A stretch of DNA of 64,000 nucleotides from Streptomyces sp. NBC_00285 (GTDB lineage Bacteria; Actinomycetota; Actinomycetes; Streptomycetales; Streptomycetaceae): NCBI RefSeq assembly GCF_036174265.1, contig NZ_CP108055.1:1-64000 (forward strand), in the 5' to 3' direction. The notes beneath the pieces were generated by a model. The model saw only the letters and a list, made by a program, of their open reading frames with translations, was not told the origin of the DNA and made no database searches. Positions within the stretch are counted from its first letter, which is position 1. The number at the start of each line of letters is the position of its first letter. Below are positions 68 through 37,442 of the stretch, piece after piece. Both the position numbers and the translations under genes were made by a program.

Positions 68-74
68 GTGTGCT

Positions 75-16848: not shown

Positions 16849-16857
16849 GTCGTATCC

Positions 16858-19559: not shown

Positions 19560-19920
19560 AGACCGCCATGCAGGCACTCCGCAACGTCAACCAGCGGCTG
19601 ATGGTTGAGAACAGCCGGCTGATCGCCGCCGACGCTCCGGAACCAACCCGGATAACCGCAGCCGCCCGCAAGCTGCCCGGCCCTTGAGAAGCTGCGAGTC
19701 GCCGTGATGTTCAGCGATCCAATCCCTCGCCGACGCCCGAACAAAAGCGAGCAAAAATGACTGAACGCTGTCCGCGCAGTTGAGAAACTCGTTACCGGTG
19801 GGCAGGGCCTGGGTGGTGTTGCCGCGCTTGAGCTGGACCCGCCCGAGGTCGGCGAGCACGATACAGATGATCGAGTGCGGATGGGGAAAGATTCTTCAGA
19901 TGTTCCGGACGCCCCACGTC
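19560..19920. pseudogene. Gene debris: TPR regulator fragment and coiled-coil fragment
   Basis: On the minus strand (about 19920-19740) ADLGRVQLKRGNTTQAL...FLNCADSVQS resembles the C-terminal end of Streptomyces HTH/TPR regulators. On the plus strand (19569-19685) MQALRNVNQRLMVENSRLIAAD looks like a transposase-type coiled coil. Neither is complete. I see no functional gene in these 360 bp. Confidence 0.4.
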
Positions 19921-19924
19921 ACCC

Positions 19925-21981: not shown

Positions 21982-22754
21982 GCCCGCCTTCCCGGGTGCT
22001 CCGCAGTGATCCGCCCGTCGGCGCGTCCGGTGTCGTCGGCCCAGCGCACGACGTCGTCGAGTTCGGTTGTGGAAACCTCCACGGACGTGTACGCCTGCTT
22101 CGCGACGACCCGGTGCAGTGTGTCCGGCGGTGACGTCCAGAACGTGCCCGCCGTGTGGCGGGTCCAGGCGGCCGCCGGTATGGCGACCGGGACGCCGGGG
22201 CCGTCCGGTGCAGGGGCCCCGTTCAGTACATCGGCCACCCCGTCCACGACGTAGTTCGTCTCCGTCTTGCGCCGGTGCGACTGGAGCGAGGAACGGTTCC
22301 CCGCCTCCATACGGATGCGTTTCACCACGTAGCCGCAATCTGGCGCGTTCTGCGTGTACCAGACCTCGGACCCCCAGGGCTTGGTCACCATGTAGTCGCT
22401 CAGGTCGTGACACGGCTCAGGTGCGTCCGGCCTCACTGGGCGTGTGCTCTCCGGAAGGCAGCCGGCCTCCAGGAGCAGCGCGTCCCCGGGACCCGCCGCG
22501 GCGCATCCGAAGACGCTGCCCGGTAAGGCGTGCCAGCCCTCCAACGGGGTGAGGACCCGGTCGCGGCCGCCTCCACTCTGGACCAGCCGGACCGACCCTG
22601 CCAGGACGAGGAACGTGCGGTAGCCAGCGGACGGGGGGCGCGACGGCAGGGCGCCGTCCGGCCCCAGCCGGTGCTCGACGAAGAGGTAGCGCCGGGCGGT
22701 GTCGGAGGCGACCAGGTCACGGCTCACCGCCGGCGTGAAAGGGGAACTGTGCAT
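21978..22754 (-). CDS. Bicupin protein, phosphomannose-isomerase type II-like
   Basis: ATG 22754 has GGAG 7 nt upstream; an earlier in-frame start gives a poor N-terminal extension. The 258-residue protein has an N-terminal beta-rich domain and a C-terminal cupin starting MVTKPWGSEVWYTQN, then RIRMEAGNRSSLQSHRRKTETNYVV and a distal HRVV. WGxE and SLQxHxxKxE are the metal-binding signature of mannose-6-phosphate isomerase-like cupins. It is first gene of the sugar operon. Confidence 0.8.
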   Translation of the reverse strand: MHSSPFTPAVSRDLVASDTARRYLFVEHRLGPDGALPSRPPSAGYRTFLVLAGSVRLVQSGGGRDRVLTPLEGWHALPGSVFGCAAAGPGDALLLEAGCLPESTRPVRPDAPEPCHDLSDYMVTKPWGSEVWYTQNAPDCGYVVKRIRMEAGNRSSLQSHRRKTETNYVVDGVADVLNGAPAPDGPGVPVAIPAAAWTRHTAGTFWTSPPDTLHRVVAKQAYTSVEVSTTELDDVVRWADDTGRADGRITAEHPGRRA

Positions 22755-22801
22755 GGTCACTCTCCTGCTCGCTCGCGAACATGACTCGGTCCGGTCAGGG
22801 T

Positions 22802-25423
22802 TCAGGACTCCACTTGGGCGAGACGCTGCGCGCACACCCGCAGGCCGTCCTCCCTCCTCAGGGAGCGGTACAGCTCACGGGCCGCCCGGTAGTGCCCGGT
22901 CGCCTCGGCGGGACGCCTGCCGTCCTGGGCCAATACGCCCAGGTGCAGCCGGATACCGGCCATCGACAGTCGGTCGCCGAACGGCTGTACCAGCACGAGG
23001 GCGCGCTCACACCCGCGTACGGCGGACACTCGCGCGCCGCGCCGGTGGTCGAGGACCGCGTCGCAGTGCACCAGGAGCCCGCGCAACCGCCAATCCAGTT
23101 CGAAGCCCTCCATCAGCTTGGCCGTCCGCGACAGCGCCCGCGCCTCGCGGTCCCGGCTTGTGACGATCCGCTCCCTGATCCGGGCCACCGCCACCAGCGC
23201 GCTGTTGCGGACATCACCGAGTTCGCGGAAGACGCCGTCCGCACGATCCAGGAGCGCTTTTACCCGGGCCGCATCCTCCGCCTCCACCACGTCCCGCGTC
23301 CGGCCGCTGCCGGGGCCCACGCACGGTCCAGGGGTCCAGCCAGCGTCGTCCAGCGCGAGCAGCGCCTCGTTCAACAGGGCGAACGCCTGCCCCCGCTGCT
23401 CGCCTGCGGCCTCGAACAGCGCGGTAGCCTCACGCAGGCACCGCAGTCCAGTGTCCGTGTCGCCGCGCAGCGCAGCGCATTCACCAAGGATCTCTAGCGT
23501 CCAGGACACACCCCGGGTGTCCGCGATGCCCCGGGCCGTGTCCAGGGCCTCCCGCAGTCGTTCCTGGGCCGCCTGCGGATCCCCCCAACGCAGCTGTACC
23601 AGGCCCAGGTTGCTGCTCGCGTCGATGACGCCGAATGGGTCGTCGAGCGACTTAAACAGGTCCACCGACTGTTCCAGCCGCTCGACGGCGGTGTCCTTCG
23701 CCCCGAGTTCACGGTCGATCTCCCCCAGGTTGCGCAGTACCGCGGCGCGCGCCCGGTCGGCATCCAGCCGCTCGGCGGCTTCGAGCCCGGTCTCCGCGCA
23801 GCGCGCGCCGACGTCCCACAGACGCAGGTTCTCCAGGGCGACGCTGCATGCGTCGGACAACTCCCAGCACAGCCCCCATGCCCCGATATCCCGGCATCGG
23901 GAGACGACCGCAGCCAGCGGCTCGCTCTCCAGGCGGAACCAGCCGAAGGGGTCGGTGATCGCGAGCTGCTCGCTCTCCGCGTCGAGCGGATAGCGTGGGG
24001 CGTCGGTCCGGCCCAGGTGGCGCACACCAGAGGGATGAACGGCCCGGTCAGCGAGGTCCGCCATCGCCAGGTAGGCCGAGGCGAGCCGGATGACGGCCGC
24101 GTCACGGTCCTGGCGGGTCAACTGCCGGGTGGCCTGGCCCCGGGCGAACTCCCGCACCAAGTCGTGCAGATAGAACCGGGACGGCTGGAGCACTCTCGTC
24201 CGCTTCGTCCTCACCAGCTGGGCCCGGCAGAGGGCACTCGTCAGCTCCTGCGCCTCCATCAGGGAGCAGCCGCACAGTGCGGCCACCGACCAGTTGGACC
24301 ACTCGTCTGCGGGATGCAGCCCCAGCAGGTCGAAGGCGCGGCGGGTGGGTTCAGTCAGATGCTCCCGACTGAGCGCGACACTTTGCTCGACGCTCAGATC
24401 GCCGAACGTGAACTCGGACAGCAGCCGGTTCTCGGCGCGCTGCCGGGCGAGCCGCCCCAGGAACGAGGTGATCGGCTGGGAGCCGTCCACCAGTCTGCCG
24501 CTCAGCACGCGCAGTGCCAGAGGGAGGCCACCGGCGACGTCGGACAGCTGACGGGCGGCCTCGGCCTCCCCCTCGATCCGCTCCCGGCCCAGGACCCGAG
24601 ACAGCAGCTCCAGCGACTCCGTCACGGACAACCCGTCCAGTCGCAGGCGCAGGCTCGCGGCCAGCCCGCCCAGCGGGTCACGGCTGGAGATGAAAGTGAC
24701 GCACCGTCCGCTGGCCACCAGCAAGGCCCGGATCTGCTCCTCGCCGTTCGCGTTGTCGAGGATGATCGCGGCACGCCGGCCGGACATAATGGAGCGGAAC
24801 TCGCGGCTGCGCTCCATCAGGCCAGCCGGGATACGGCGTTCGTCCATCCCCAGGTCACGCAGCCAGCCGCCAAGGACGTGCCGCGCGGTGAGGGGGTTCG
24901 GTCCGTAGCCCTGGAGATCTACGTAGAGCTGGCCGTCAGGAAACCTCGCGATGACTTGTTCGACGGCGTGGATGATGAGCGAGGTCTTGCCGATCCCGCC
25001 CGGCCCGCAGATCACCCGTATGTCGGCCGTGGGCCCGCCGCGCCGCCTGCCCGATGCGCTGAGTAGGGCGATCTCGTCGGCACGGCCCACGAAGTCGGGT
25101 AAGCCAGCCGGGAGTTGATGCGGGACGAGCGCACCTGATAAGGAGCCAGACGAGGCGGACGGACCGGCCCCGGCCCGCGCGGCGAACACTTCGGCGAGTG
25201 CGCCAGCGACGCCCGCCGCCGCCAGCCCCCACCAGGAGTGGTTCTCCAGCCCTGCCAGGACAGAACCAGTGGCTGCCGTCCCCACCCACAGGGTCAGGGT
25301 GGACGCGCGCCTCAGGCTAGCCACGTACGGAGCACCCTTGGCGGGCCCGAACGGCTCCGTGACCGGAGTGCCGTCAGGGTGCCGGGATGGGACGCACGTA
25401 TCCCCTGCAAGATCGCCCCCCAT
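22802..25423 (-). CDS. NB-ARC ATPase with TPR repeats, two N-terminal membrane-like helices
   Basis: With ATG 25423 the product is 873 residues; the frame stays open to a GTG at 25852, but that extension is Arg/Pro-rich and has no gene-like composition. Hydrophobic stretches lie at about 44-56 and 62-82. A linker leads to FVGRADEI and the P-loop GPGGIGKTS (about 140-148), ILDNANG, ISSRD, GGLPLAL, a winged-helix-like region, and then many TPR units. AfsR/SARP-like NB-ARC proteins have the same core, but no DNA-binding domain is seen. It lies 48 bp upstream of the sugar operon and may sense a signal for it. Confidence 0.75.
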   Translation of the reverse strand: MGGDLAGDTCVPSRHPDGTPVTEPFGPAKGAPYVASLRRASTLTLWVGTAATGSVLAGLENHSWWGLAAAGVAGALAEVFAARAGAGPSASSGSLSGALVPHQLPAGLPDFVGRADEIALLSASGRRRGGPTADIRVICGPGGIGKTSLIIHAVEQVIARFPDGQLYVDLQGYGPNPLTARHVLGGWLRDLGMDERRIPAGLMERSREFRSIMSGRRAAIILDNANGEEQIRALLVASGRCVTFISSRDPLGGLAASLRLRLDGLSVTESLELLSRVLGRERIEGEAEAARQLSDVAGGLPLALRVLSGRLVDGSQPITSFLGRLARQRAENRLLSEFTFGDLSVEQSVALSREHLTEPTRRAFDLLGLHPADEWSNWSVAALCGCSLMEAQELTSALCRAQLVRTKRTRVLQPSRFYLHDLVREFARGQATRQLTRQDRDAAVIRLASAYLAMADLADRAVHPSGVRHLGRTDAPRYPLDAESEQLAITDPFGWFRLESEPLAAVVSRCRDIGAWGLCWELSDACSVALENLRLWDVGARCAETGLEAAERLDADRARAAVLRNLGEIDRELGAKDTAVERLEQSVDLFKSLDDPFGVIDASSNLGLVQLRWGDPQAAQERLREALDTARGIADTRGVSWTLEILGECAALRGDTDTGLRCLREATALFEAAGEQRGQAFALLNEALLALDDAGWTPGPCVGPGSGRTRDVVEAEDAARVKALLDRADGVFRELGDVRNSALVAVARIRERIVTSRDREARALSRTAKLMEGFELDWRLRGLLVHCDAVLDHRRGARVSAVRGCERALVLVQPFGDRLSMAGIRLHLGVLAQDGRRPAEATGHYRAARELYRSLRREDGLRVCAQRLAQVES

Positions 25424-25886
25424 GCTCTTGCCGCCGCACCAACCGTTCCCTGCGCTGCCGATGCCCGATGATGATACGGAGCCCGAAGGAGACCCGTCCA
25501 TACGTGGTGTTGTGGGATGTATGCCTCCCGGACGGGCGAGGCGGGAGCCGCTCCCTCCCGGCGGCCTCCGGGCCCGCGACGAAGTGTGTCCCGACAGCCA
25601 GCCTGGGCGGCCAGCCACCCTGGGACGGGCCCGGATCCTGACAGTGCGCCCATCGATCGGAGTCCGTAAACGCCACGGCCCGGCCGGCACCACATACAGC
25701 GTCGTGCGCCTCACCGCCCGGATCTCCCGGCGGACGGTCCCGACGGCGTCGCCCGCACGCCGGAGGAGCCGCAGGCCGACGCCCCTCGAGGATCGGCGAG
25801 ACGACGACGCACCACTGGCGGGAGGGCATACTCCGCCATACCTGTCGGTCACACCATTGACTCATAGGTAGAACAGCCCGTGACCT
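25424..25886. other. Intergenic/uncertain region
   Basis: Long open frames exist on both strands here, but they are Arg/Pro/Gly-rich and show no motif. The minus-strand one could be an N-terminal extension of the NB-ARC gene. It probably holds that gene's promoter and a recombination scar at the truncated Mom gene. Confidence 0.35.
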
Positions 25887-26483
25887 GTGGGAAGCGCGTC
25901 CAACAGTGCGCAGAAGGAGCCGTACACCGAGTCGTTGGTTTGCTCGCGATTCGTCCTGCTGGATGAGTGCCCTGGAAATTCCGAGTCGTGGTTCCTCGCG
26001 AACTGCCTAAACCGCCTGCTCGCCAGTGGTGTACACGGAGTCGTCTCGTTCGCGGATCCTGTCCCGCGCCGGGCCGCCTCGGGAGTTCTGGTCATGCCTG
26101 GGCACGTCGGCACGATCTACGCCGCCACGAACGCGGTCTACGCCAGCCGGGCCACCGCCCGGACGGTGAAGCTCCTGCCGGACGGCACCGTCTTCCACGA
26201 CCGCACGGCACAGAAGATCCGCCGCCAGGAGCAGGGCTATCAGTACGCCGAAGCCCAGCTCATCGCGCTCGGAGCTCCGGTTCCGCGGGCCGGGTGCAAC
26301 CCGGCCGTCTGGCTGCGGGAGGCCCTGGTCGCGGTCGGCGCCCGCAACGTACGGCACCGCGGCGCGCACCGCTACGTATGGCGGCTGGGCCGAAGCCGGC
26401 GGGAGCGCGAGCAGATCAAGCTCGGTCTCCCCGCTCAACGGCCCTATCCCAAGCAGCCCGACCCCGAACCGATCGCGGTCTGA
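25887..26483 (+). pseudogene. Mom-family DNA-modification protein, 5'-truncated
   Basis: From about 25917 the frame reads EPYTESLVCSRFVLLDECPGNSESWFLANCLNRLL, VVSFADPVPRR, PGHVGTIYAATNAVYASRATARTVKLLPDG and HRYVWRLG. These are hallmarks of the Mom-like GNAT proteins that modify adenine (phage Mu Mom makes the carbamoylmethyl-type modification). In-frame stops at 25869 and 25881 precede it, and the usual N-terminal 70-80 residues with part of the catalytic GNAT core are missing. It is probably inactive unless a rearranged start supplies them. Confidence 0.75.
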
Positions 26484-26571
26484 AGGCTGTTCAGCCCCGC
26501 AGTCCGTACCGCCCGCCGCGGTCGCCCGGTCTCACCGCCCATTTTTCCCCTGCTCTCCCAGGAGGAGACCC

Positions 26572-26988
26572 ATGCCCGCCCTCTGGAATCCGCCGCCGAC
26601 CCTCTCAGTGCACCAGCTCGAAGGCTTTCCCGTGATCGGCCACGCGCACGGCCCCAAGGACACCGCCCCCTGGTCGACGCGGCCCGGGAACCGAACCCGA
26701 TACAGCATCCACGCCGTCGACACCGCCCAGAACAAGTTGCTCGTGTCGATCAGCAGCGTCGTCATCGCCGGCGGAGACACCGAGTACCCGCACCCCCAGC
26801 GGGGCGTCACCGGCTGGGCTCCCCTCGCGCGTTTCGACCTCATCCTCCTCACTCATCTGCGCACGAGCGGCTCGTACGCCGGACACCAGTGCCACCACCA
26901 CATACGTGCCTACCCCGAGGCGCGGCCCTGCTGGCACTGCAAAGCCCGTCCTCCCGAGGCCCAGTGCACCCACTTCACCGAGTCCTAG
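26572..26988 (+). CDS. Hypothetical protein with C-terminal zinc-knuckle-like motif
   Basis: The 138-residue product follows CAGGAGGAG. It has a beta-rich body (RTRYSIHAVDTAQNKLLVSISSVVIAGGD), a LARFDLILLTHLRTSGSY helix, and CHHHIRAYPEARPCWHCKARPPEAQC, whose Cys/His spacing could bind zinc. It precedes the PAPS-reductase-like gene by 60 bp, probably in one operon. No family is recognised. Confidence 0.7.
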   Translation: MPALWNPPPTLSVHQLEGFPVIGHAHGPKDTAPWSTRPGNRTRYSIHAVDTAQNKLLVSISSVVIAGGDTEYPHPQRGVTGWAPLARFDLILLTHLRTSGSYAGHQCHHHIRAYPEARPCWHCKARPPEAQCTHFTES

Positions 26989-27048
26989 CCCCACCAGACC
27001 GGCCCCGTCAGGGCTGCCCGCTAGCCCGCCCAGCAGGAAAGAGGAACC

Positions 27049-28083
27049 ATGTCGCACCCCACCCCCCTGTATGCCGACCTGGTTGCGTTCGCCGCGACCC
27101 GGCACCGCATCGTCATCAACCTTTCCGGCGGGAAGGACGGCCCTGTGGCCGGCCTGATCGCGATGGACGCCGCCCGCCAGGCAGGCGTCGCCGACCGCGT
27201 CTGGACCGCCCACGCGAGTCTGGGACCGATGGAGTGGCCCGCCGTCACCGTGGACGGAGTTCGCTGGCCGAGTGCCAGCGAACTCGCTGCACAGCACAGC
27301 CAGGCCCTCGGCGTGCCGCCCGAGCGGCATATCGAGGTCCGGCGCAGCCGTGAAGTCGGCGGTGAACGGGTGCCGTTCGACCTGCTGACCTTCATCGCGG
27401 AGCGGGGCGACTGGCCGTGGCTCGGCCGGGCCCGCACGTGCACGGGCCCGTGGAAGACGAAGATGGTGTACCAGGCGTTCACTCCCCAGGTCCGCGCGCT
27501 CAGGAAGGAGACGGACGGCCCGCTGATGTTCGCGAATATGCTCGGGATGCGGGCCGAGGAGAGCCCGGACCGGCGTAACCGGGAGATGTGGCGCCGTACG
27601 ACCGACAACTCGGCCCGGGTCGTCGACGAGCGGTTGCCTGCCCACCTGGTGAGCACCGAGGAGGTCTGGGAGCGCACGATCATTGCGGGGCTGCCCTACC
27701 ACTGGTGCTACGACTCGCATCCCGGTGCCAAGGACCGGCGTGGCTCCAGTCGCTGCTCGTGCTCGGCCTGCACCCTGGCCAACCACCGCGATCTGCTGCT
27801 GATGGCCGGGCGCCGGCCGCGGCTCGCCGAGCTGTGCGCGCTGGTCGAACGCGTCCGCCAGGTGCCGTTCAACCCGAACATCACCATGGCCGAGCTCATC
27901 GCGTTGTCCCGCCGGCGCAATGCCCCCGACCCCGGCGTCGTGGTTGAGGAGACCGAGGACTTCGAGCGGATGGAACGTGACGTCCACGCCGCCCTGTGCA
28001 AGCCGCCCACATGGGACTCCAAGGCCCGCACCGGGCCGGGCGAGCTCCTGCACAGCGCCGCCGGGTGCGACGGCTGCCACTGA
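27049..28083 (+). CDS. PAPS reductase/DndC-like ATP-pyrophosphatase family protein
   Basis: The 344-residue product starts after AAGAGGAACC. The PP-loop is INLSGGKDGPVAGLIAMDAA (about 24-43). It continues with the strand VWTAHASLGPMEWP, WPWLGRARTCTGPWKTKMVY, MLGMRAEESPDRRNREM, and a CSCSACTLANHRDLL Cys cluster that could bind an Fe-S centre or zinc. This architecture is shared with DndC/PAPS-reductase-like proteins of phages and islands; the substrate (sulfate, tRNA or DNA) cannot be told. Its neighbour is a broken Mom gene, so a nucleic-acid-modification role is a reasonable guess. Confidence 0.8.
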   Translation: MSHPTPLYADLVAFAATRHRIVINLSGGKDGPVAGLIAMDAARQAGVADRVWTAHASLGPMEWPAVTVDGVRWPSASELAAQHSQALGVPPERHIEVRRSREVGGERVPFDLLTFIAERGDWPWLGRARTCTGPWKTKMVYQAFTPQVRALRKETDGPLMFANMLGMRAEESPDRRNREMWRRTTDNSARVVDERLPAHLVSTEEVWERTIIAGLPYHWCYDSHPGAKDRRGSSRCSCSACTLANHRDLLLMAGRRPRLAELCALVERVRQVPFNPNITMAELIALSRRRNAPDPGVVVEETEDFERMERDVHAALCKPPTWDSKARTGPGELLHSAAGCDGCH

Positions 28084-28123
28084 CCACCACCCCGCACACC
28101 GCCCCTCTGGAGGGATACTTCTC

Positions 28124-28465
28124 ATGATGACGACCACCCAGTGCATCCTCGATCTCGCTGCAGCGGCACCGGCCAGCCACGGCGAGGACCTGGTGCTGCT
28201 CCTGGCCGAGGCGAACGAGCTGTACCAGCAGGGCCTGCAGGAGCTGCACCGGGAAGTGGCAGCACGTCTCGACGGGCTGGCCATCGCGGACCTGATGTTC
28301 GCCGCGGACACCGTCGGCATGCCCTGTGATGCCTCTCAGGGCCGCGACGAGGTGATCCTGCTGCTGGCCCTGGTCGAGTGGGAGATGACGCCGGCCGCCA
28401 TGGCCTACACGGAGATGGCCGCGGACGCCGCACGCCGGGGTGTCTGTCTGATCCGCGAGGAGTAG
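28124..28465 (+). CDS. Hypothetical small helical protein
   Basis: The 113-residue product starts at ATG 28124 (28127 also possible) after GGAGGG. It is all-helical by composition (GEDLVLLLAEANELYQQGLQELHREVAARLDGL, VILLLALVEWEMTPAAMAY). It is 40 bp downstream of the PAPS-reductase-like gene and likely in its operon. No family is recognised. Confidence 0.7.
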   Translation: MMTTTQCILDLAAAAPASHGEDLVLLLAEANELYQQGLQELHREVAARLDGLAIADLMFAADTVGMPCDASQGRDEVILLLALVEWEMTPAAMAYTEMAADAARRGVCLIREE

Positions 28466-28598
28466 GCCGTGCGCCGTGGGGCGGCCGGCCGGGAGAAACC
28501 TTGAGGCGCGGGCTGGACCTCCGACCGAAACTTCTGCCATTATTTGTTTTGCGAGCCGGGCAGGCCGGCTAGCTGCTGACAGGACGGACGGTTCTGCC

Positions 28599-29315
28599 AT
28601 GACCTCGCAACGTGAGCCTCGCCTGGCCGACGCTGCCGAGATCGCGGCCGAACAGGGCCTGACACCCGCACGGATCACCGGCCTCTATACCGAGCGCGCG
28701 GAGAACGCGGCTGGCGAGACATTTCCCGAGCCTGTCGACAAGCGCGGCCGCGCCCGCCTGTGGGACCACGCGGAGGTCACCGAGTGGTTCGCCCACCGGG
28801 CGCTGGCACGGCTCGCTGAACACGCACCTCCCTCCCTCGCCCCGGAGACGTTGCTGAACGCGGCGGACGCCTCGAGGTATCTCGGTTACAAGAACCCCAA
28901 CCAGGTCACCACCTTCGTGCGCGACCACCCCGGTTACTTCCCCGAACCGGACGTCGTCGAAGAGAAGGGCACGGCGGAGAACCCTTACCGCCGCCAGCTC
29001 TGGAAGGTGCAGACCCTGCAGGAGTGGATGGCCAGCCGGCCCGGCCGCGGAAGGCGAGCCGGAGCCAGGGAGGCACCGCCTCTGCCCGACGTTCCCGTCG
29101 ACGGTGATCCCGACGAACTGCTGGGGGCGAGCCAGGCAGCCGCCTTGCTGGGGTACAAGAGCGTCGGCTCCTTCTCCAGCAGTCTGTCCCAGGGCAACCT
29201 TCCGCTGTTGAAAGACACGGACGGGGTTGCCGAGAATGCCGGGCGCCAGAACGGGCGCCGGCGGTGGACGCGCCGGCGCATCCTCGATCAGGCCGCCCAG
29301 CGGTCCAAGCGGTAG
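28599..29315 (+). CDS. Protein with three MerR/AlpA-like helix-turn-helix modules
   Basis: The 238-residue product contains three related modules: LADAAEIAAEQGLTPARITGLY...LWDHAEVTEW (about 8-67), LLNAADASRYLGYKNPNQVTTFV...LWKVQTLQEW (about 87-146) and LLGASQAAALLGYKSVGSFSSSL...RRWTRRRILDQ (about 175-232). Each has the LxxxxxAxxLGxxxxxxxxxx pattern plus wing of excisionase/AlpA-like proteins. It is likely a DNA-binding regulator or element-specific architectural protein. It stands alone between the PAPS operon and the replication-relaxation gene. Confidence 0.75.
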   Translation: MTSQREPRLADAAEIAAEQGLTPARITGLYTERAENAAGETFPEPVDKRGRARLWDHAEVTEWFAHRALARLAEHAPPSLAPETLLNAADASRYLGYKNPNQVTTFVRDHPGYFPEPDVVEEKGTAENPYRRQLWKVQTLQEWMASRPGRGRRAGAREAPPLPDVPVDGDPDELLGASQAAALLGYKSVGSFSSSLSQGNLPLLKDTDGVAENAGRQNGRRRWTRRRILDQAAQRSKR

Positions 29316-29490
29316 TACCCGGTGGTGAGCGGACTTCCGCGCACCACCCCATGAACGCGGTCCCCGGTTTTTGGGAGTTGGTCCCTTGCGGGCCGGGTGT
29401 CGCACGATGGCCGGCATGGCGTGGTTCGCCACCACGCCCCGCAGCGGCAGATGCTGCTGCGGACCGGCCATCGCCTGTCTTCTGACCGCC

Positions 29491-29563
29491 CCGACCATGG
29501 CCCCGACCACGACGTTGTTCTTGGGTCGTGACCTTGGTCGGGGTCCCGTGGTCGGGGGTCGGG
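29491..29563 (+). promoter_or_regulatory. Site A: CCGACCAC/GTGGTCGG cluster before the replication-relaxation gene
   Basis: CCGACCAT (29491) and CCGACCAC (29503) are 12 bp apart. They are followed by inverted copies TTGGTCGG (29534), GTGGTCGG (29548) and GGTCGGG (29557). The block 29501-29543 shares its outer CCCCGACCAC/GGTCGGG arms, its 43-bp length and an inner TCGTGACC with site C (37211-37253). It lies 28-100 bp upstream of the 29591 start, fitting an autoregulatory operator or replication site. Confidence 0.65.
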
Positions 29564-29590
29564 TCGGGGGCTGAGGGTTGTCTCCCCTCC

Positions 29591-30505
29591 ATGACCCGTT
29601 CCACTTCAGATGTCGCGGCCGCCGAGCTGGCCCCCAGCCCTCGTGAACCATTGCGCTTGCAGGTCCTGACCGCGCTCGCCCTGCACCGGATGGCCACGAC
29701 CGGCCAGCTGCGCCAGATGCTGCGGCCGGACGGCTCCCGCCAGTTGCTCTCGCGGGTGCTGAACAACCTGCGCTCCACGGGCTTCGTCGACCTCACTCCA
29801 TTGCCGGACTCGGCCCGCTCTCGTACGCACGCCTGGTACCTCACGCCTGAGGGCTCGCGTCTGACCCGCGATCTCCCCATCCTGCGGGGGCGTCCGCCGT
29901 ACCCCATCACCTCAACTACCGCGGCGTCGCTGAAGACTCCGCACACGCTGACCGTCACACGGTCCCACCTGCCGTTTGCGGCAGACGCCCGCCGGCTCGG
30001 GCACGAGCACGGTCCGTGGGACTGGACTCCCGAGGTATCTCACCCCATCGGTGAGGGCGAGCGGCTCGTGGCCGACGCCGTCATGCACTACACCGTCGTC
30101 ACCGGCGACCACCGGCGGAAGCTGCGCGCGTTCGTGGAGGTCGATCGCAGCACCATGAGCAGCGAGCGCCTGGCCGTGAAGTTGATCGAGTACGCCAGAT
30201 TGTTCCAGTACGAGGCCCAGCCCGTCGGCCGCCGCCGCCCCGTCTCCACCGGCCCGGCCTGGCTCCGCTGGTATCCGCTCTTCCCCCGCCTACTTTTCGT
30301 GCTCACCGGCGCCTCCCGGGCCCGGCTGGGCGACCGAATCAGCGATCTGCAGGCGATGGTCACCCAGCACCCGCTCGTCGCAGCCCTCGCCCGCGAAGTC
30401 CAGCTCGGAGCCGTCGTCCTGGAGGACATCGAAGAGCACGGTCCGTCTGGGTCGGTGTGGGTGCCGCTGACTGGGGGCGAGCCCCGCCCGTGGACCGGTT
30501 TGTAA
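29591..30505 (+). CDS. Replication-relaxation family protein (plasmid replication/regulation)
   Basis: The 304-residue product has the actinobacterial Replic_Relax pattern. An N-terminal winged helix (LQVLTALALHRMATTGQLRQML...LLSRVLNNLRSTGFV) is followed by HAWYLTPEGSRL, LTVTRSHLPFAADARRLGHEHGPWDWTPEVSH, a nuclease-like FVEVDRSTMSSERLAVKLIEYARLF and a C-terminal LLFVLTGASRARLGDRI. The family is named from Streptomyces plasmids, and its exact biochemistry is not settled. A repeat-rich operator-like site lies just upstream. Confidence 0.85.
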   Translation: MTRSTSDVAAAELAPSPREPLRLQVLTALALHRMATTGQLRQMLRPDGSRQLLSRVLNNLRSTGFVDLTPLPDSARSRTHAWYLTPEGSRLTRDLPILRGRPPYPITSTTAASLKTPHTLTVTRSHLPFAADARRLGHEHGPWDWTPEVSHPIGEGERLVADAVMHYTVVTGDHRRKLRAFVEVDRSTMSSERLAVKLIEYARLFQYEAQPVGRRRPVSTGPAWLRWYPLFPRLLFVLTGASRARLGDRISDLQAMVTQHPLVAALAREVQLGAVVLEDIEEHGPSGSVWVPLTGGEPRPWTGL

Positions 30506-30542
30506 TCGGTCCACGGCCGGCCCCCGGACGGGAGCAGGAAGC

Positions 30543-30572
30543 CGGCGCCCCGGACTCCGGTCTGGGGCGCCG
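30543..30572. terminator. Bidirectional hairpin between convergent genes
   Basis: CGGCGCCCC (30543-30551) pairs with GGGGCGCCG (30564-30572). A second inverted repeat, GTGGACCG/CGGTCCAC, flanks the stop of the replication-relaxation gene near 30490-30514. It separates that gene from the minus-strand gene ending at 30674. Confidence 0.6.
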
Positions 30573-30673
30573 TGCTGTTGGGCCGATCTGCTGGCCCCTG
30601 AGCTTCGGGCCGTTGGAGGGGCCGGCCGGCTCGTCGGCCTCGTCCATACGGGCCGCAATGCGTCGGCAGCCCC

Positions 30674-32161
30674 TCACTTCAGGCGGGAGAGTGGGGGCAG
30701 CAGGCCGTCACCGGGCCAGAAGTCCTGCTCGGCTACGAGGACGGCGAGGAACCTGTCGACCTCGGCGAGAACCGCGGCACGGTCTTTGGGCCCATAGGCG
30801 ATGAATTCGTCGGCTGCGGCGTCGAAGGCGCGCACCTGGCTGTGCGGGGCGGCGGTGATGAGGGCGCGTGCGATGTCGGGGAGGCCGAGGCTGAGGGCGT
30901 CGCACTCCCTGGTGTGGACGAGCTGCACGAGGCCGGTAATAACTTTCTCCCAGTCGCCGACCGTCGGCCAGTGGGCGCCGCCGCCCAGTTCGTGGGTGAG
31001 GGTGGAGAGCGGGATGATCTCGCCGGGCCTGCGTCCCTGGGTGAGGCGGTCGTGAATCCGGGCGCCGTCGGGCTGTTGCACCTGGGGGTGGAGCAGGGAG
31101 GCCGCGGTGACCAGGGTGGTGTTGATCTCCTGGGTGCCGTCGCCGGGGTAGTACGGCTCGTGCGCGAAGAGGAGATAGACGTCCGTGGTGCGGGCTGCGT
31201 CGTCGGGCGGGGTCTGCGTCATGGGTCGGTATCCCTTCAGCGGTGACGTGTCGGTGTTGGGCGAGGGTGTTGGCCGTGCCGCGGGTTCGAAGCCGTGCGG
31301 GAGCGGGCCCAGCGGGCCGTTGCCGCCGTGGGGCTGGCCGGCCTCGCTGGGAGGCGGCTCGGCGTGGGTGCGCTCCACGGTCTGGGCGACTTGGTAGGCG
31401 AGCTGGGCCATCAGCCGTTCGCGGTCGATGAGGCGGGGCGAGGCCGGGCGGGTGTCCTCGTTGTGGAGCAGGCCGGCGGCGTCCCACAGCAGGGTGTGGC
31501 CGAGTTCGGCCGAGCGGTGCAGTTCGTGGAGGTCGCTGTCGGCGGCGGCGTGGACGATGTTGGTGTGCAGGGCGGCGAGCCTCTGGAGGTACTGGCAGGC
31601 GGCGTCTCCTTCGACGATGCGGACGTGCTCACGGGTCCGGTCGTCGAGCCGGTCGGGCAGGGCTTCGGTGAGCAGCGGGGCGAGCAGCATCGCCGGCAGG
31701 ACGACGTCGGTGGGCACGTCGTGGCTGAGGGCGTGCAGGGCGGCGAAGAGGCTGATGATCCCCACGAGGACGGTGGAGAAACGCAGGGTTGCGGGGCTCG
31801 TGGCGGTCGGCGCGATGCGGTGCGCGGGGTGCCGGGTCAGCCGGCGCAGGGCCAGCCGCTGTGTGAGCGTCGCGCCCGGGGTGAGGACCCCGATCTGTCG
31901 AGGGAGGCCGGGCAGGGTGCCGTTGCCGGGCACGGTCCAGGTCAGCCATCCCCACCCGGTGCGCTCGTGCACGAGCGCGGGCTCGCCTGTGCCGGTGCAC
32001 GTGGTGCCGGTGCACGTGGTGCCGGTGCACGTGGTGCCGGTGCAGACGTGGCCGGTTCGCAGGGCGCGGGATTGTTCTTCCTCCCACCGTCGAGGATCGC
32101 GGGCGAAGGGCCGCAGCGGCTGCTGGGGTGCCGTCCGGGGTGTGTGGAGCGTGTCTGTCAT
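30674..32161 (-). CDS. Hypothetical membrane-associated protein with CTGTT pentapeptide repeats (possibly two genes)
   Basis: ATG 32161 overlaps the upstream stop (ATGA). The 495-residue frame has a Cys/Thr/Gly repeat (about 39-58), a hydrophobic pair around 130-165 (LVGIISLFAALHALSH, VVLPAMLLAPLLTEAL), a helical domain, then a Pro/Gly linker. At 31222 an internal ATG (MTQTPPDDAARTTDVYLLFAHEPYY) has AAGGGA 9 nt upstream and begins an apparently independent domain. This may be a fusion, or a second gene translated from within. No family is recognised. Confidence 0.7.
   Translation of the reverse strand: MTDTLHTPRTAPQQPLRPFARDPRRWEEEQSRALRTGHVCTGTTCTGTTCTGTTCTGTGEPALVHERTGWGWLTWTVPGNGTLPGLPRQIGVLTPGATLTQRLALRRLTRHPAHRIAPTATSPATLRFSTVLVGIISLFAALHALSHDVPTDVVLPAMLLAPLLTEALPDRLDDRTREHVRIVEGDAACQYLQRLAALHTNIVHAAADSDLHELHRSAELGHTLLWDAAGLLHNEDTRPASPRLIDRERLMAQLAYQVAQTVERTHAEPPPSEAGQPHGGNGPLGPLPHGFEPAARPTPSPNTDTSPLKGYRPMTQTPPDDAARTTDVYLLFAHEPYYPGDGTQEINTTLVTAASLLHPQVQQPDGARIHDRLTQGRRPGEIIPLSTLTHELGGGAHWPTVGDWEKVITGLVQLVHTRECDALSLGLPDIARALITAAPHSQVRAFDAAADEFIAYGPKDRAAVLAEVDRFLAVLVAEQDFWPGDGLLPPLSRLK
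31987..32047 (-). repeat. 15-bp coding repeats giving CTGTT pentapeptides
   Basis: Units of CACGTGGTGCCGGTG (plus strand) occur in tandem with almost no divergence. They encode Cys-Thr-Gly-Thr-Thr in the minus-strand gene. The near identity suggests recent slippage expansion. Confidence 0.75.
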
Positions 32162-33594
32162 GAGGTGCTCGCTTCCAGAAAGCCGGTCCCGGTCAGGGCG
32201 GAGGTGCAGGTGGCGCAGCGGCCGTCGCCGTCGGGGTGCGCGCGACGGGGAGTGGGGCCTGGGCAGGTGCGGCACAGCGGCCAGCCGAGGCAGGCCGGGC
32301 AGAGGTCTTCACCGGGGGCGGTACCGGGCCTGCCGCAGCCTGCGCATTCGACGAGCGCCCGGTAGGTGAGCGCCTGGCCGACCGTGCGGGCGGCGGCGGA
32401 CGACGACGTGGTGGAGGGCTGCGTCGTCCACGAGGCCCCGCCCGGGCCGGCGTCGTCGAAGCGGGCAGCAGGAGGCGGGTAGAGCTGCGCGGAGCGCAGC
32501 CGGGCGGCGACGATCGCGTCGACGGAGGTGCGGATCCTGTTCGGCAGCGGGCGGCCGGTGATGACGTGGCGCAGCTGCGCGGAGTTCCAGCCGGCCTCCA
32601 GCATCGCGGTCATGACCCGGCCCTGGTCGTACAAGGCCTTCTCCTGCAGCAGCAGTCCGGGGTGGGCCGACCCGATCGACAGCAGCAGCCGGGTGCCCGG
32701 ATCGAGATCCTGCCGCGCCGGCGTGTCCGTCCGCTGCAAAGGCACAGCCGGGCGGCCGCTCGTGCGAGCGCCGCGGGCGCACGGAGGGAGGGAACTGGTC
32801 TTCTGCTGGTTGGTCTTCTTACTGCTGGTGTTCTTTGCGGGGCGGCCGGCCAACGCAGGGTTATCCAGTCCTGGATTTCCCGACTCTGGCCCGGACCTGG
32901 TGTTGTGCAGGGCAGGCAGGTCGGTGATGACGTACGTGGCCGAGCCGAGGGTGCCGTCGGGATGACGGTCGCGGTCCCGCCGCAGAAATCCGTGCCGCTC
33001 GAGCTCCCCCAGCCCGGCCGCCACCGCGTCCACACCCTCGCGCCCCCGCCGGGCCAGGTCCGCGACCGTCAGGTGCCAGCCCTCGCGATGGGTGCTGATC
33101 AGACCGAACAGGCCCTTCGACTTGAAGGACATGCGCCTGTCGCGGAACAGGCCGTTGGCGATCTGCGTGAACCCGTCGCCGGCCATCACACCGCGGCGGA
33201 TGCCCATGCCGTAGCCGCCCCGGCCGTCCGCAGGTGCCGACGGCGCGTGGAGCGCTGTGGCGGCGTCCGCCATGAGAGCGTCGGCGAAGACGGGGTGGTC
33301 GGTGATGGAGTAGACGGCCTCGCCGAGCGTGCCGTTCGTGCGGCGCAGGCGTTCGCGGAACAGGTAGCCGTGGATCTGAAGTTCCTTCAGCCCGGTGCGC
33401 ACTGCGTCCCGTCCGTCGGGTCCGGAGCGGACGAGGCCGGCGACGGTCACCTGCCAGCCGTTCTGGTGGGTGCTGATGTATCCGAAGAGGCCTTTCGCCT
33501 TGAAGCTGACGCGGTGGTCGCGGAACAGGCCGTTGGCGATCTGCGTGAACCGGTCCCCGGCCATCACACCGCGACGAATCCGCGCACCGGTCAT
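32158..33594 (-). CDS. Plasmid-type HTH protein with duplicated winged-helix domain and Cys-rich tail
   Basis: ATG 33594 gives 478 residues; a longer open frame to 33783 looks non-coding. Two near-identical modules start IRRGVMAGDRFTQIANGLFRDHR and IRRGVMAGDGFTQIANGLFRDRR (about residues 5 and 130). Each runs through SFKxKGLFG-ISTHxxGW to a winged helix, and each ends in Y-ITD. This resembles replication/regulatory HTH proteins of Streptomyces plasmids. The C-terminus has CAGCGRPG, CPACLGW, CRTCPGP and CATC zinc ribbons. It is first in a two-gene operon, with site B about 160-265 bp upstream. Confidence 0.8.
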   Translation of the reverse strand: MTGARIRRGVMAGDRFTQIANGLFRDHRVSFKAKGLFGYISTHQNGWQVTVAGLVRSGPDGRDAVRTGLKELQIHGYLFRERLRRTNGTLGEAVYSITDHPVFADALMADAATALHAPSAPADGRGGYGMGIRRGVMAGDGFTQIANGLFRDRRMSFKSKGLFGLISTHREGWHLTVADLARRGREGVDAVAAGLGELERHGFLRRDRDRHPDGTLGSATYVITDLPALHNTRSGPESGNPGLDNPALAGRPAKNTSSKKTNQQKTSSLPPCARGARTSGRPAVPLQRTDTPARQDLDPGTRLLLSIGSAHPGLLLQEKALYDQGRVMTAMLEAGWNSAQLRHVITGRPLPNRIRTSVDAIVAARLRSAQLYPPPAARFDDAGPGGASWTTQPSTTSSSAAARTVGQALTYRALVECAGCGRPGTAPGEDLCPACLGWPLCRTCPGPTPRRAHPDGDGRCATCTSALTGTGFLEASTS

Positions 33595-33750
33595 CACGCG
33601 CCCCCCAGCGCACTCGACACGCTGGGCGCACTGGGCGCACTGTGTGCGCCGCAGCCGGGGCATCCCACACCGCTCACGGAAGCGAGACGGCCGGTACCTG
33701 CGGTAGAAGGGACATGCGCGAGATCCATGCAGGCAGCCCACCCGCCGATA

Positions 33751-33859
33751 CCGACCACCACGGCGGCCACAACCCCCGACCACCCATCACGATCCGGCAC
33801 CATGCGCACTCGGCTGCCACGGTCCGGCCCATGGCCGGGCCGACCACACCCCCGACCAC
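33751..33859. promoter_or_regulatory. Site B: four CCGACCAC motifs upstream of the minus-strand operon
   Basis: CCGACCAC occurs at 33751, 33776, 33840 and 33852; the last pair has the same 12-bp spacing as the 37-kb array. The cluster lies upstream of the duplicated-wHTH gene, which reads away from it, so it may be its operator. Confidence 0.55.
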
Positions 33860-34053
33860 GACCTATGCGCCACGAGACGGGCAGGCCGTTCCGCGAGGTC
33901 GGCCTGTGGAGCCCGGCGGACAGGCAGAGTCAGGTGATCGCCTACCGCCGAGGGGGGCCCTGCCGCTCGCACTCCAGGGCCTCTTCACCGAGCAGTCCCA
34001 GCGCCTTGGTACAGCCCGCATCATCTGGCCAAGACGGTGACGTGACCCGCCCT

Positions 34054-34902
34054 TCAATGAAGATCTCGGGTCTGACCTCTTACTGATCGTTTCAAAATGC
34101 CTTCCGGAGTCGGCGAAGGCAGATGATTCCGCAGGGCCAGCTCCAGCAGCCCTTGGTGGAGATCGGCACGGCGCTCGTAGCGGATCCGCAGCCGTTTGAA
34201 CTGATGGAGCCAGGCGAATGTGCGCTCGACTAGCCACCTGGTGCGCCCAAGGCCCGAGCCGTGTGCGACCCCGCGTCTGGCGATGACGGGCTTGATCCCG
34301 CGCGCCCACAACAAGCGGCGGTACTTGTCGAAGTCGTAGCCGCGGTCGGCGTACAGCCGTTTGGGCCGATTGCGGGGACGACCGCGCAATCCCCTCATAC
34401 GTGGGATCCCTTCCAGTAACGGGATCAGCTGCGTGACGTCGTGCCGATTTCCCCCGGTCACCAAGACGGCCAGCGGTGTGCCGTGCTGGTCGACGATCAC
34501 ATGGTGCTTGGAGCCAGGACGCGCACGATCGACAGGTGAAGGACCGACAGGGTCTCCCCCCTTCAGAGCGCGGACGTGAGAGCCGTCCATCGCGGTGTCG
34601 TCCATCGCGAGCAGTCCCCATGCTCTCAATGCACCAAGGAGAGCGTTGTGGAGGCGGGGCCAGACACCAGCCTCGGTCCAGTCCCGAAGCCGACGCCAAC
34701 GTGTCACCCCTGAGCAGCCGACGACCTGAGCAGGAACATCCCGCCATGCGACGCCCTTCCGCAGCACGTAGACGATGCCGGCCAGAGCAACCCGGTCCGG
34801 TACCGGCAACCGCCCAGGATTGCGGTACCGCCGAGAACGCCGCGGCGGGAGCAACGGAACTATCCGCTCCCACAGGTCATCAGGAACAAGATCGGCAGAC
34901 AT
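34054..34902 (-). CDS. IS5-family transposase
   Basis: The 282-residue single frame starts MSADLVPDDLWERIVPLLPP, typical of Streptomyces IS5-group transposases. It has the DDE motifs MDDTAMDGSHV (first Asp), LYADRGYDFDKYRRLL (second Asp) and RWLVERTFAWLHQFKRL (Glu). The C-terminus (ILKRSVRGQTRDLH) reads through the inverted repeat at 34082. It looks intact. Confidence 0.9.
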   Translation of the reverse strand: MSADLVPDDLWERIVPLLPPRRSRRYRNPGRLPVPDRVALAGIVYVLRKGVAWRDVPAQVVGCSGVTRWRRLRDWTEAGVWPRLHNALLGALRAWGLLAMDDTAMDGSHVRALKGGDPVGPSPVDRARPGSKHHVIVDQHGTPLAVLVTGGNRHDVTQLIPLLEGIPRMRGLRGRPRNRPKRLYADRGYDFDKYRRLLWARGIKPVIARRGVAHGSGLGRTRWLVERTFAWLHQFKRLRIRYERRADLHQGLLELALRNHLPSPTPEGILKRSVRGQTRDLH

Positions 34903-34928
34903 GCGGCAGATCCTGCCCCGACATACCT

Positions 34929-36050
34929 TCAGCCGGGAGTCGTTACATCGGCCGGTGCCTGAAACGACCGACTCTCCCCTCGGTTTCCGAAAGCCGGATA
35001 CCCCGGCAGCGGGGCCACCTCCCAGCCTCCGGCGACCTCACGCAACAACAACCGCATCGTCTCCGCGAACGCCGGGAACTCCTCCAGCGTGCTCGCCATC
35101 TCCCAGCGATGCCTCAGCACCTGACGCCTCGTCGGGACCGGACGCCGAGTCCGGTGCAGCGGCTCGTCCTCCACGGTGCGAGGAAGCATCCTCACCGTCG
35201 CGTCCACCGTCCAGACCGCTACGGCCTGCCGCATGCCGGCCTGCCACACCTCGTCCTCGGCCAGCGCCGGGTACACACCGACGACCTCCGCGCGATACGC
35301 CTGCTCGATCTGTGCGGCGATCCCGGCCGGCAGGGTGAAGACACACCAGCAACTGGAGAACGGCATCCGGCAGTACGCGGCCGTCAGGAACACCGACTGG
35401 TAGCAGGCCGCCTCGAAGTCGATCAGCCGCAGCCCCTGTGAGGTGAGCAGGTTGTTGTCGGGACACGTGTCGCCCGGGGTGAAGGCCGGATACTCCTGCC
35501 CACCCGCTGTCCCGATCCGGGCCAACTCCCCGGCAAGGCCCTGCGGAACTGCGATTCCGGCGCCGTCGAGCAGCACGAGCAGATCGGTGGCCCTCCGCGC
35601 GATCCACGGCTCGTCCCCCCAGGACAGCATGCCCTTGTCGTAGCGGGACCACAGCCGCGCGAGATCGGCACGCCGGTGCACCGACGCGGCAGCCAGCTGC
35701 CCAAGCCCGCGGGCCCAGGCCAGCAACCCGCTCTCCGCAACCGCCGGATCACTCCCGAGCAAAACATCCGCCAGAGTAGGCGCGTCCCCGAGATCCGCCA
35801 TGACCAGCAGGGGAACCTCAAGGTCCACACCCAGCACCTCAGGACCGGCGATCCCGAGAGACAGCCCAGCGGCCTCAGCCGTGAAGCCGCGCAGGGACTC
35901 CCGCTCGTTACCGAACGCCTTGACGATCACACTGCCGCCACCGGCCGTTTCACAACGCAACACGATGCTACGCGAGCTGCCACCCAGATCAACCGGACCG
36001 GACAACTCGACACCCAACAGTTCACCGGCGGCACGCAAGATCGACTCCAC
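34929..36050 (-). CDS. Aminoglycoside-phosphotransferase-fold (APH-like) kinase
   Basis: GTG 36050 gives 373 residues. The APH-type signature is present: FTPGDTCPDNNLL replaces the usual HGDxxxxN catalytic loop (Pro for His), and LIDFEAA supplies the metal-binding Asp. The N-lobe has SVIVKAFG with the likely ATP-binding Lys. Small-molecule kinases of this fold phosphorylate antibiotics, choline, sugars and others; the substrate is not readable. It ends 27 bp from the transposase start and may be an IS passenger. Confidence 0.75.
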   Translation of the reverse strand: MESILRAAGELLGVELSGPVDLGGSSRSIVLRCETAGGGSVIVKAFGNERESLRGFTAEAAGLSLGIAGPEVLGVDLEVPLLVMADLGDAPTLADVLLGSDPAVAESGLLAWARGLGQLAAASVHRRADLARLWSRYDKGMLSWGDEPWIARRATDLLVLLDGAGIAVPQGLAGELARIGTAGGQEYPAFTPGDTCPDNNLLTSQGLRLIDFEAACYQSVFLTAAYCRMPFSSCWCVFTLPAGIAAQIEQAYRAEVVGVYPALAEDEVWQAGMRQAVAVWTVDATVRMLPRTVEDEPLHRTRRPVPTRRQVLRHRWEMASTLEEFPAFAETMRLLLREVAGGWEVAPLPGYPAFGNRGESRSFQAPADVTTPG

Positions 36051-36106
36051 CCCGGCATCCTGCCACCACCACCTCGGACACCGTAGGCCGCTATGTGAAC
36101 ACCAAC

Positions 36107-36124
36107 CATTTCGAAACGATCAGT
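36107..36124 (-). repeat. Inverted copy of the IS5 end
   Basis: Reverse complement reads ACTGATCGTTTCGAAATG, matching 34082-34099 at 17 of 18 positions. Confidence 0.65.
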
Positions 36125-36720
36125 CAAGCCCCAAGCAAGCCCCTGCCACGCCCGCACGGACTTATGCGCGCCCGGCCACCCAGGCGCCGAACGGCCTCTC
36201 CGGAACCTTCGGATCCCGGGCACGGCCCAGTGGCGGGCCCAGGGCCCCCGCCCCAGCCTCGCGTTCCTCGTACCGCGAACCGACGACACACACATCAACA
36301 CATCACGTCGCGGCACTCACCCCTGAGCTCTCCACCACCCTCCCCGCCCTCCCCATCCGACACCACGAACCCTTCCGAACCGATCCAGCACCTGGAGAAG
36401 CACAATGAGTAACGAACAGCACACCCCCAACCCCGACACCCCCGACGCAGCAGTCGGTGCACATCCGCCGCAGCCCGCCACAAAAGCCCGGGACAAAACC
36501 ACGGAAAGACCACGGAAAGACCACAGACCGGAACGACATCGCGAAGAACACCGGCCTGACCGCAACCCGCGAAACGTTCCCCGGAACACTCCACGTGGTC
36601 GCTGCCACGATCCGCAACACCCTCCTCACAGATACCAGCACGGAATGAACCCACCCACGCCGGCAGCCTGACCGCCGACCCGTGCCCCGCCGCCCGCGGC
36701 GAACAACGATCCGATCCGGC
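36125..36720. other. Mostly non-coding stretch with a possible decayed small gene
   Basis: ATG 36405 after GGAGAAGCACA starts MSNEQHTPNPDTPDAAVGAHPPQP; good coding then seems to move frame (NDIAKNTGLTATRETFPG... to 36648). This could be a frameshifted small plasmid gene. The rest of this 600 bp is Pro/Arg-type noise in all frames. Confidence 0.3.
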
Positions 36721-36863
36721 TGCGCACCCGGTACGCACTGCCAACTGCGCACCCCCCACGGGCCGGTGCGCAGACACTGCGCACCAGGCCGCGGATCCTG
36801 CGCAATCCACGTACGCGTGTGAATGCGCAGCCCCCACCCGGATGCTCGGGAGCCGGCTGCGCA
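36721..36863. repeat. Array of seven TGCGCA palindromes, iteron-like
   Basis: TGCGCA occurs at 36721, 36746, 36767, 36778, 36799, 36824 and 36858. The first six are spaced 25, 21, 11, 21 and 25 bp, symmetric about 36775 and close to whole helical turns. No gene is seen here. The pattern suggests a cooperative binding site such as a replication or partition locus. Confidence 0.6.
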
Positions 36864-37037
36864 TCCCCCTGCCACTGCACATCCGCCTGCCACTGCACAG
36901 TCCCCCAGCGCGGGAGTCCCGCAGGGCCGCACACCCGCAGGAGTGCACCCCGCATTACGCACCGGGCGCCACCAACCCCGATCGCCAGGTGACCCGGCAT
37001 ATCGCAACAAGACCCCGCCAGGGGTGCGAAACGCCCC

Positions 37038-37204
37038 GGTCGGGGCCGCGGTCGGGGCCGCGGTCGGGGCCGCGGTCGGGGCCGCGGTCGGGGCCGCGGT
37101 CGGGGCCGCGGTCGGGGCCGTGGTCGGGGCCGTGGTCGGGGCCGTGGTCGGGGCCGTGGTCGGGGCCGTGGTCGGGGCCGTGGTCGGGGCCGTGGTCGGG
37201 GCGA
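37038..37204 (+). repeat. Dodecamer tandem array GGTCGGGGCCGC/T
   Basis: There are thirteen full 12-bp units from 37038 plus a partial one at 37194. The first six end in GC and the next seven in GT, so the two halves were amplified separately. Open frames through it give only simple repeats (GAAV, PRPR) and are not genes. Each GT-GGTCGG junction recreates the GTGGTCGG motif of sites A and B. Confidence 0.85.
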
Positions 37205-37210
37205 CCACGA

Positions 37211-37253
37211 CCCCGACCACACGTTTGTATCCCCTTCGTGACCGTGGTCGGGC
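37211..37253. promoter_or_regulatory. Site C: 43-bp inverted-repeat site next to the dodecamer array
   Basis: CCCCGACCAC (37211-37220) and GTGGTCGGG (37244-37252) form arms around 23 bp. The overall length and the inner TCGTGACC are the same as in site A at 29501-29543. A truncated start (ATG 37335, MSPRNRPSASCAVT) follows in the position the replication-relaxation gene takes at site A. Confidence 0.65.
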
Positions 37254-37442
37254 CTTCATGGCCGGTGGCCGGGTCAGGGCTACAGGCTGCCTCGCGTCAG
37301 AAACAACAACCCGCTCCCACACGGAAGTTCGACAATGTCACCTCGCAACCGTCCCTCGGCGTCCTGCGCAGTCACCATCACCGTCACTGACCACGCAGTG
37401 CCGGTCCTCTCGCGGGCCTCACGGTCTTGGGTCGGCGCTCCG

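Follow-up and report, generated by a model that had tools for sequence, protein, structure and literature searches.

The window analysed here, the first 64,000 bases of the 10,263,655-base contig of Streptomyces sp. NBC_00285 (a second contig in the genome has 46,095 bases), contains three related blocks of short repeats, which we call sites A, B and C. Judged from their sequence and their surroundings in relatives, these are probably the operator-promoter blocks of one conjugation regulon of the plasmid kind, part of which has been lost at the chromosome end. The blocks are placed consistently: C is found some 100 nt ahead of the first gene in a type IV secretion system (T4SS) operon, B before a divergent operon that encodes a winged helix-turn-helix (wHTH) protein, and A in front of a relaxase gene located away from the T4SS operon. 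The module of T4SS and relaxase with a single operator code was found at 67 genome loci and on plasmids.

The code itself is clearly present in the window. The octamer CCGACCAC/GTGGTCGG occurs 23 times, compared with a mean of 6.72 and a maximum of 13 in 100 dinucleotide shuffles, and 15 of the copies are found at the sites: two at A (29503 and 29548), four at B (33751-33859) and nine in a tandem array together with C (37120-37251). The other eight are scattered (5660, 9900, 17742, 33295, 44028, 48609, 49430 and 63803) and their number is about that expected by chance, as the preliminary description of this DNA, made from the letters alone, had cautioned. Its positive claims on this point also held: the octamer is shared by A, B and the array with C, steps of 12 bp are seen in A (with the shorter core CCGACC), in B and in the array, and A and C have the same 43-bp architecture, which consists of CCCCGACCAC, a 15-bp spacer, TCGTGACC, 2 bp and GGTCGGG. 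Site A (29489..29570, plus strand) is a putative operator block of two inverted half-sites, the core TCGTGACC and direct half-sites, 5' of a solo Replic_Relax gene. Site B (33748..33862, minus strand), 5' of the wHTH operon, is partly degenerate. Site C (37192..37251, plus strand) would be the operator block of a lost tcpC operon, and its half-sites further downstream, to about 37282, are degenerate.

The function of these blocks is suggested by their relatives, which are designated below by L-numbers (loci) and G-numbers (genomes). A plasmid collection was searched with the Replic_Relax and wHTH proteins. The former matched 163 plasmid records (153 from Streptomyces and 10 from Kitasatospora), the latter 104 (65 from Streptomyces); in 19 of these a single place accounted for 80% or more of the query. 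Of the plasmid records nine were read, of which eight are linear and one is circular. In five of them (L064-L068) the wHTH gene runs one way and is followed by the control region and then, on the opposite strand, by an operon that encodes TcpC, small proteins, a VirB4-like ATPase, a membrane protein, an NlpC/P60 protein, an ATP/GTP-binding protein and, last, Replic_Relax. In L060, L062 and L063 the wHTH gene and tcpC are divergent and Replic_Relax is encoded apart, and the stretch read of L061 had no match to tcpC or the wHTH protein. A scan by alignment to the VirB4-like protein yielded 67 genome loci, 66 of them titled Streptomyces and one Kitasatospora. Over these and the nine plasmid loci tcpC was matched in 73 of 76 cases; L134 and L135, which match only the later part of tcpC and have no true C region, were counted as misses. 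The operon is recognizably a T4SS operon, with matches to AAA_10 (E 1e-38) and TcpC (E 5.3e-11) in L060 and to NLPC_P60 (E 1.7e-23) in L064. Profiles were also used to look for a VirB6-like protein and a VirD4-type coupling protein: the membrane protein reached 37.9 bits with NF046089, below the cut-off of 120, and the ATP/GTP-binding protein had no Pfam or NCBIfam match. According to the MOB-suite labels given in PLSDB, 119 of the 163 records that match Replic_Relax are non-mobilizable. L060 and L062 carry MOBF and MOBP labels, so that another relaxase may act in these two.

The region between the wHTH gene and tcpC has a common layout. We compared 75 tcpC upstream regions, from the 73 loci and from both arms of the chromosome of the window. 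The block is built of GGTCGG half-sites, the core ATCGTGACC and more GGTCGG half-sites, and C typically has two direct and then two inverted half-sites, 12 bp apart, before the core. At least three GGTCGG were present in 65 of the regions, a pair spaced by 12 bp in 65, CCGACC in 64, a core joined to GGTCGG in 53 and the palindrome GGTCGGNCCGACC in 46. In most loci 98-101 nt separate the core of C from the end of the tcpC start codon (eight regions have no exact core), and B most commonly precedes the wHTH start by 173 nt. Conservation of the spacing in related plasmids, which the preliminary description had named as a check on its proposal, was thus observed. The wHTH-to-tcpC distance is 640-760 bp in 38 of 63 relatives, and the consensus of these regions shows conserved B and C blocks with TGCGCA repeats between them. 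The 38 regions contain 8.2 TGCGCA on average, compared with 0.23 in base shuffles, and spacings of about 7 and about 15 occur in 33 of the 63. In the window a remnant of this spaced array, as judged by comparison of the spacing with relatives, lies at 36721..36863. On the basis of the usual distance, the segment at 34054..36050 (minus strand), between B and the TGCGCA array, is called an insertion; it consists of an IS4/5-type transposase gene (34054-34902, by Pfam) and a further open reading frame (ORF; 34929-36050).

Some variation within the region deserves separate mention. TGCGCA is absent from L067, L076, L110 and L133; L067 and L110 have TGCACA/TGTGCA in its place and L099 and L132 are mixed, another concerted change. 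A pairing of the change from TGCGCA to TGCACA with an RRQTVN helix of Replic_Relax (L067 and L110, with L099 mixed) was considered and set aside as proof, as it perhaps reflects one clade. The leader (the last 62 nt before tcpC) has an inverted repeat in front of the ribosome site, whose 7-bp arms match perfectly in 49 of 73 loci, as AGGTCAG/CTGACCT in 45, CAGGTAG/CTACCTG in three and CAGGTCG/CGACCTG in one. The repeat has paired changes in the clade with GGAGGG (see below), is degenerate in the window and is a possible translational switch. We also looked for a regulon beyond A, B and C with the core pattern CGTGAYCNNGGTCGG, modelled on C and A (the spacer of B is longer). Among eight plasmids it occurred once in seven and twice in one, the single match in W02 lying outside the known sites, and a looser pair pattern gave a few further places per plasmid. 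In the chromosome G295 the core pattern occurs 14 times, never at the module. The wider regulon was rejected.

The presence of a block at A goes with the position of the relaxase gene. As a DNA query, site A matched in 24 of 295 same-genus genomes, its own included. The 28 loci from the other 23 genomes lie upstream of tcpC in 20 cases (in two of these, L040 and L056, the tcpC match is weak or partial), upstream of Replic_Relax in six and upstream of neither in two; L033 and L055 are two ends of one genome. Solo Replic_Relax genes have the block upstream in 14 of 14 cases, namely the gene of the window, the six retrieved with site A and seven from protein searches (L060, L061, L063, L073, L092, L098 and L116). 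Fewer than two hexamers stand upstream of 38 of the 41 operonic genes, the exceptions being L079, L111 and L114. This count omits matches that scored less than 150 bits or began beyond residue 40 (that of L062, for example), as well as two genes at locus ends (L093 and L104). Because the block is found at all solo genes and at few operonic ones, a relaxase gene outside the operon appears to bring along a copy of the control block of the operon; site A is, to all appearances, a displaced C.

The relaxase gene behind A (29591..30505, plus strand) encodes 304 residues and belongs to Replic_Relax (PF13814, the MobC-type relaxases), with 94 bits against the Pfam gathering score of 25.3. Its product is 95% identical to that of L092 (S. 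cavernae) and 94% to that of L098 (S. samsunensis). The core of MobC superfamily members resembles that of restriction endonucleases, and its catalytic residues are acidic ones and lysine. In Replic_Relax, D162, E183, D185 and K197 are invariant in 25 of 25 sequences; the helix-strand order fits such a core, but in a model of low confidence (predicted local distance difference test score, pLDDT, 60.9). A Foldseek search of this model against the PDB gave no match at E of 0.001 or less, the best being the restriction enzyme MspJI at 0.02. The operon behind B, on the minus strand, contains the gene of a 478-residue protein with two wHTH domains in one chain and a cysteine-rich C-terminal region (32158..33594; a homologue matches HTH_36), followed by a second gene (30674..32161) for a protein of 495 residues without a Pfam family, as is its homologue in L060.

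Covariation of the sites points to a protein that reads them in trans. In five of the seven loci with a shifted hexamer, B and C have changed together: GGAGGG dyads are found at both in L068, L122 and L125, both have mostly GGTCAG in L117, and GGTCAG and GGTCGG are mixed at both in L113. L111 (GGTCTG) and L115 (GGTGGG) could be read at C only. The hexamer vectors of B and C agree with a mean cosine of 0.92 over the 59 usable loci of 61 (those lacking a vector for either site were left out), which was matched by none of 20,000 permutations, and again by none of 20,000 when L122, L125 and L113 were removed.

Two proteins of the module could be this reader. The first, Replic_Relax itself, which was one option in the preliminary description, would read the CCGACCAC code and regulate its own gene, as TraA does in pIP501. 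Relaxase autoregulation is known, according to an excerpt of PMC6540685, solo Replic_Relax genes carry site A, and the N-terminal region of the protein has the element order of a winged helix, with weak MarR-like matches (E 0.036 at best). The recognition helix, however, varies where the hexamer does not: at least three types (SRQSVSERLN, ARQTVSTPLN and SRQLLSRVLN) go with the same hexamer, and L111 combines a changed hexamer with a usual helix. In 35 loci with both proteins and the usual hexamer (thirteen loci whose hexamers are shifted, mixed or otherwise different were left out), the mean pairwise identity of the helix is 0.54 in Replic_Relax versus 0.77 in the first wHTH domain. We therefore consider Replic_Relax an improbable reader and favour the tandem wHTH protein behind B as the candidate. 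SarS, a protein with two wHTH domains of its own, is the best PDB match of the wHTH model in Foldseek (E 1.9e-4).

A number of observations weigh against this assignment, and against a single reader as such, so that the identification of the wHTH protein stays tentative. Its model is poor (two wHTH units, pLDDT 56.8) and superposes weakly on SarS, with template modelling scores (TM-scores) of 0.14 and 0.26. The first wHTH helix in L113, where half of the hexamers are GGTCGG and half GGTCAG, and in L117 resembles that of the GGTCGG lineages, and proteins with a single wHTH domain occur with both hexamers; at least L068, L120, L122, L123 and L125 lack the first domain. In L085 C has changed to GGTTGG and B has not, and L081 is mixed. 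L068, L122 and L125 kept the old hexamer in their distal GGTCGG pairs while the dyads became GGAGGG, so that a second reader is possible. Few clades underlie the permutation result, the joint change could also be a product of gene conversion between B and C, and the six solo genes fetched with site A itself are a selected set that counts little. Of the proposal that one protein regulates its own gene and binds an array at an origin or centromere, the shared code with its conserved spacing is supported, and the joint change of B and C points to a reader in trans; neither Replic_Relax as the reader nor the array as an origin or centromere is favoured any longer.

If the assignment is correct, the plasmid-encoded tandem wHTH protein from the operon behind B would bind the half-sites cooperatively and repress both divergent promoters, its own gene included, perhaps by linking B to C over the intervening TGCGCA array. 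Such control would keep the transfer genes and the relaxase in step. Alternatively, the B-TGCGCA-C region could primarily be an origin of transfer (oriT), whose repeats are bound by the relaxase and accessory proteins and in which promoter control is secondary. Its location directly before a T4SS operon that ends in a PF13814 relaxase in five plasmids would suit an oriT, as would the excess and regular spacing of TGCGCA, and the oriT of pCW3 contains tandem repeats to which TcpK binds, as described in part of PMC6540685. Set against this are the four loci without TGCGCA, two of which have the altered repeat, the lack of an identified nic site, and site A, where the same block precedes a solo relaxase gene without a TGCGCA array, in line with promoter control. 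On balance we regard a primary oriT as possible but doubtful. A more ambitious reading joins the two functions: the region of about 700 bp would be an internal oriT fused with a master switch of conjugation, in the setting of mostly linear Streptomyces plasmids. The MobC-type relaxase would nick inside this region, the T4SS would export single strands from a linear molecule, and the operator code would evolve fast, hexamer and reader changing together and so keeping plasmid lineages apart. Taken as a whole, this combination is unlikely.

The array next to C was previously suggested to mark an origin or a centromere. It consists of 14 tandem 12-bp units (CCGACCNCGGCC; 37038-37199, minus strand), with the core GGTCGG repeated at exactly 12 bp. 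An origin of replication or centromere, kept by selection for many binding sites, would account for so many exactly spaced copies of a site that is conserved elsewhere. The run is, however, confined to the left arm and not conserved among relatives: two units are found in 66 of the 75 tcpC upstream regions, among them that of the right arm, and no other run exceeds three. Moreover, the array adjoins a truncated operon, and four GGTCGG at 12-bp steps occur in 73 of 295 same-genus genomes, the own one included, many of the listed places being in simple repeats. Tandem expansion of this unit is thus not rare, and we hold an origin or centromere to be very improbable. The array would instead have arisen when the two units usually found at C were multiplied in tandem. 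Two further interpretations were rejected. As a coding repeat it would belong to a minus-strand ORF (36303-37322), which has no match except to PT low-complexity, with a score under the Pfam cut-off, and which is dropped by a gene call based on codon position. Nor was it kept as a genus-wide feature: many of the listed places with four-unit matches are in simple repeats, and the context of two of them (L169 and L170) had no tcpC or wHTH match, and only a distant Replic_Relax-like piece was found at L169.

The state of the module is best understood from its location. The left copy of a terminal inverted repeat occupies 28..37058 (37,031 bp, one mismatch with the right arm) and contains sites A and B, while its inner end lies inside the 12-bp array. 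An inverted repeat at both ends would be expected of a linear chromosome, and exchange between the arms would have stopped inside the array. The right arm continues with two array units and then site C, with 95% identity over 206 bp, beyond which the arms diverge. The truncated 5' end of tcpC (MSPRNRP...SCAVTITVT; 37335..37387, plus strand) is found in both arms with the same break point, followed by sequence specific to each arm. In the genome of the window (G000) alignment to VirB4 gave no match, where the positive control G295 gave one, and a T4SS operon was thus not found there by this search. Since tcpC is cut short and VirB4 is unmatched in the genome, the window is not an intact transfer replicon; with a transposase and an ORF between B and C as well, A, B and C are, as far as their sequence tells, the surviving relic of a conjugation module, partly within the terminal inverted repeat of a chromosome and partly at its border. 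The relaxase and wHTH frames are open in the window and may be expressed.

Several other features of the genome were noted. In the right arm (G000:C1, about 10225683-10226492) the tcpC start with site C is fused in frame to an ORF of 269 residues; this frame resembles a helical-repeat protein, and promoter capture is possible. The second contig encodes a distant Replic_Relax relative (G000:C2:7346-8032, E 1.7e-20), and no GGTCGG pair at 12 bp was found on these 46 kb. Within the window, a protein with TPR and borderline NB-ARC matches adjoins a Mom-like protein (PF25680) at 22802-26480, possibly a defence or DNA-modification pair, and two stretches at 47696-50402 recur, 98-99% identical, in a part of the right arm that is not within the terminal repeat.

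Short repeated sites near a transfer gene are familiar from the Streptomyces TraB/clt system, in which the FtsK-like TraB reads clt and moves double-stranded DNA, whereas the module described here is T4SS-like and has a relaxase. Excerpts of reviews give double-stranded DNA transfer as an actinomycete mode (PMC6540685), and T4SS-type integrative and conjugative elements (ICEs) have also been reported in Streptomyces (an excerpt of PMC9513070). Searches of open-licence full texts, which do not include most subscription papers, showed no description of this control region. For the question of how linear replicons move, the module offers promoters, a repressor and an oriT as candidates for testing.

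The closest parallels come from other plasmids. Rco of pLS20 is not known to be a tandem wHTH protein. Its arrangement is nevertheless similar in that, according to an excerpt of PMC6540685, the regulator gene is divergent from a large conjugation operon, with operators over both promoters and a DNA loop; here the two operators are separated by a further repeat array, a copy of the operator can accompany the relaxase gene, and the likeness is one of arrangement. In pIP501, as described in the same excerpt, the two-domain winged-helix chain TraN represses the tra promoter and its own, and the relaxase TraA is linked to this control; the excerpt calls TraN small, whereas the protein behind B has 478 residues with a cysteine-rich C-terminal region, and the two are likened by description. 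The wHTH protein TcpK of pCW3 occupies tandem repeats next to a transfer operon of the tcp type (same excerpt) but acts at oriT, while the repeats in our case are upstream of three transcription units. With respect to the relaxase, Table 1 of PMC5357655 assigns PF13814 to the MobC superfamily, in elements with a VirD4 coupling protein, and a table in PMC11104534 has Replic_Relax beside MOBT calls in one element. In the MobC/VirD4 elements, so far as this part of PMC5357655 describes them, the PF13814 protein adjoins an ATP/GTP-binding protein at the end of the T4SS operon; the corresponding partner here has no Pfam or NCBIfam match and the carriers are Streptomyces plasmids, eight of nine records linear and one circular. 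Finally, the T4SS-type ICEs of Streptomyces, in the excerpt of PMC9513070, also unite a relaxase, a coupling protein and VirB4 in mobile elements, but those are integrative.

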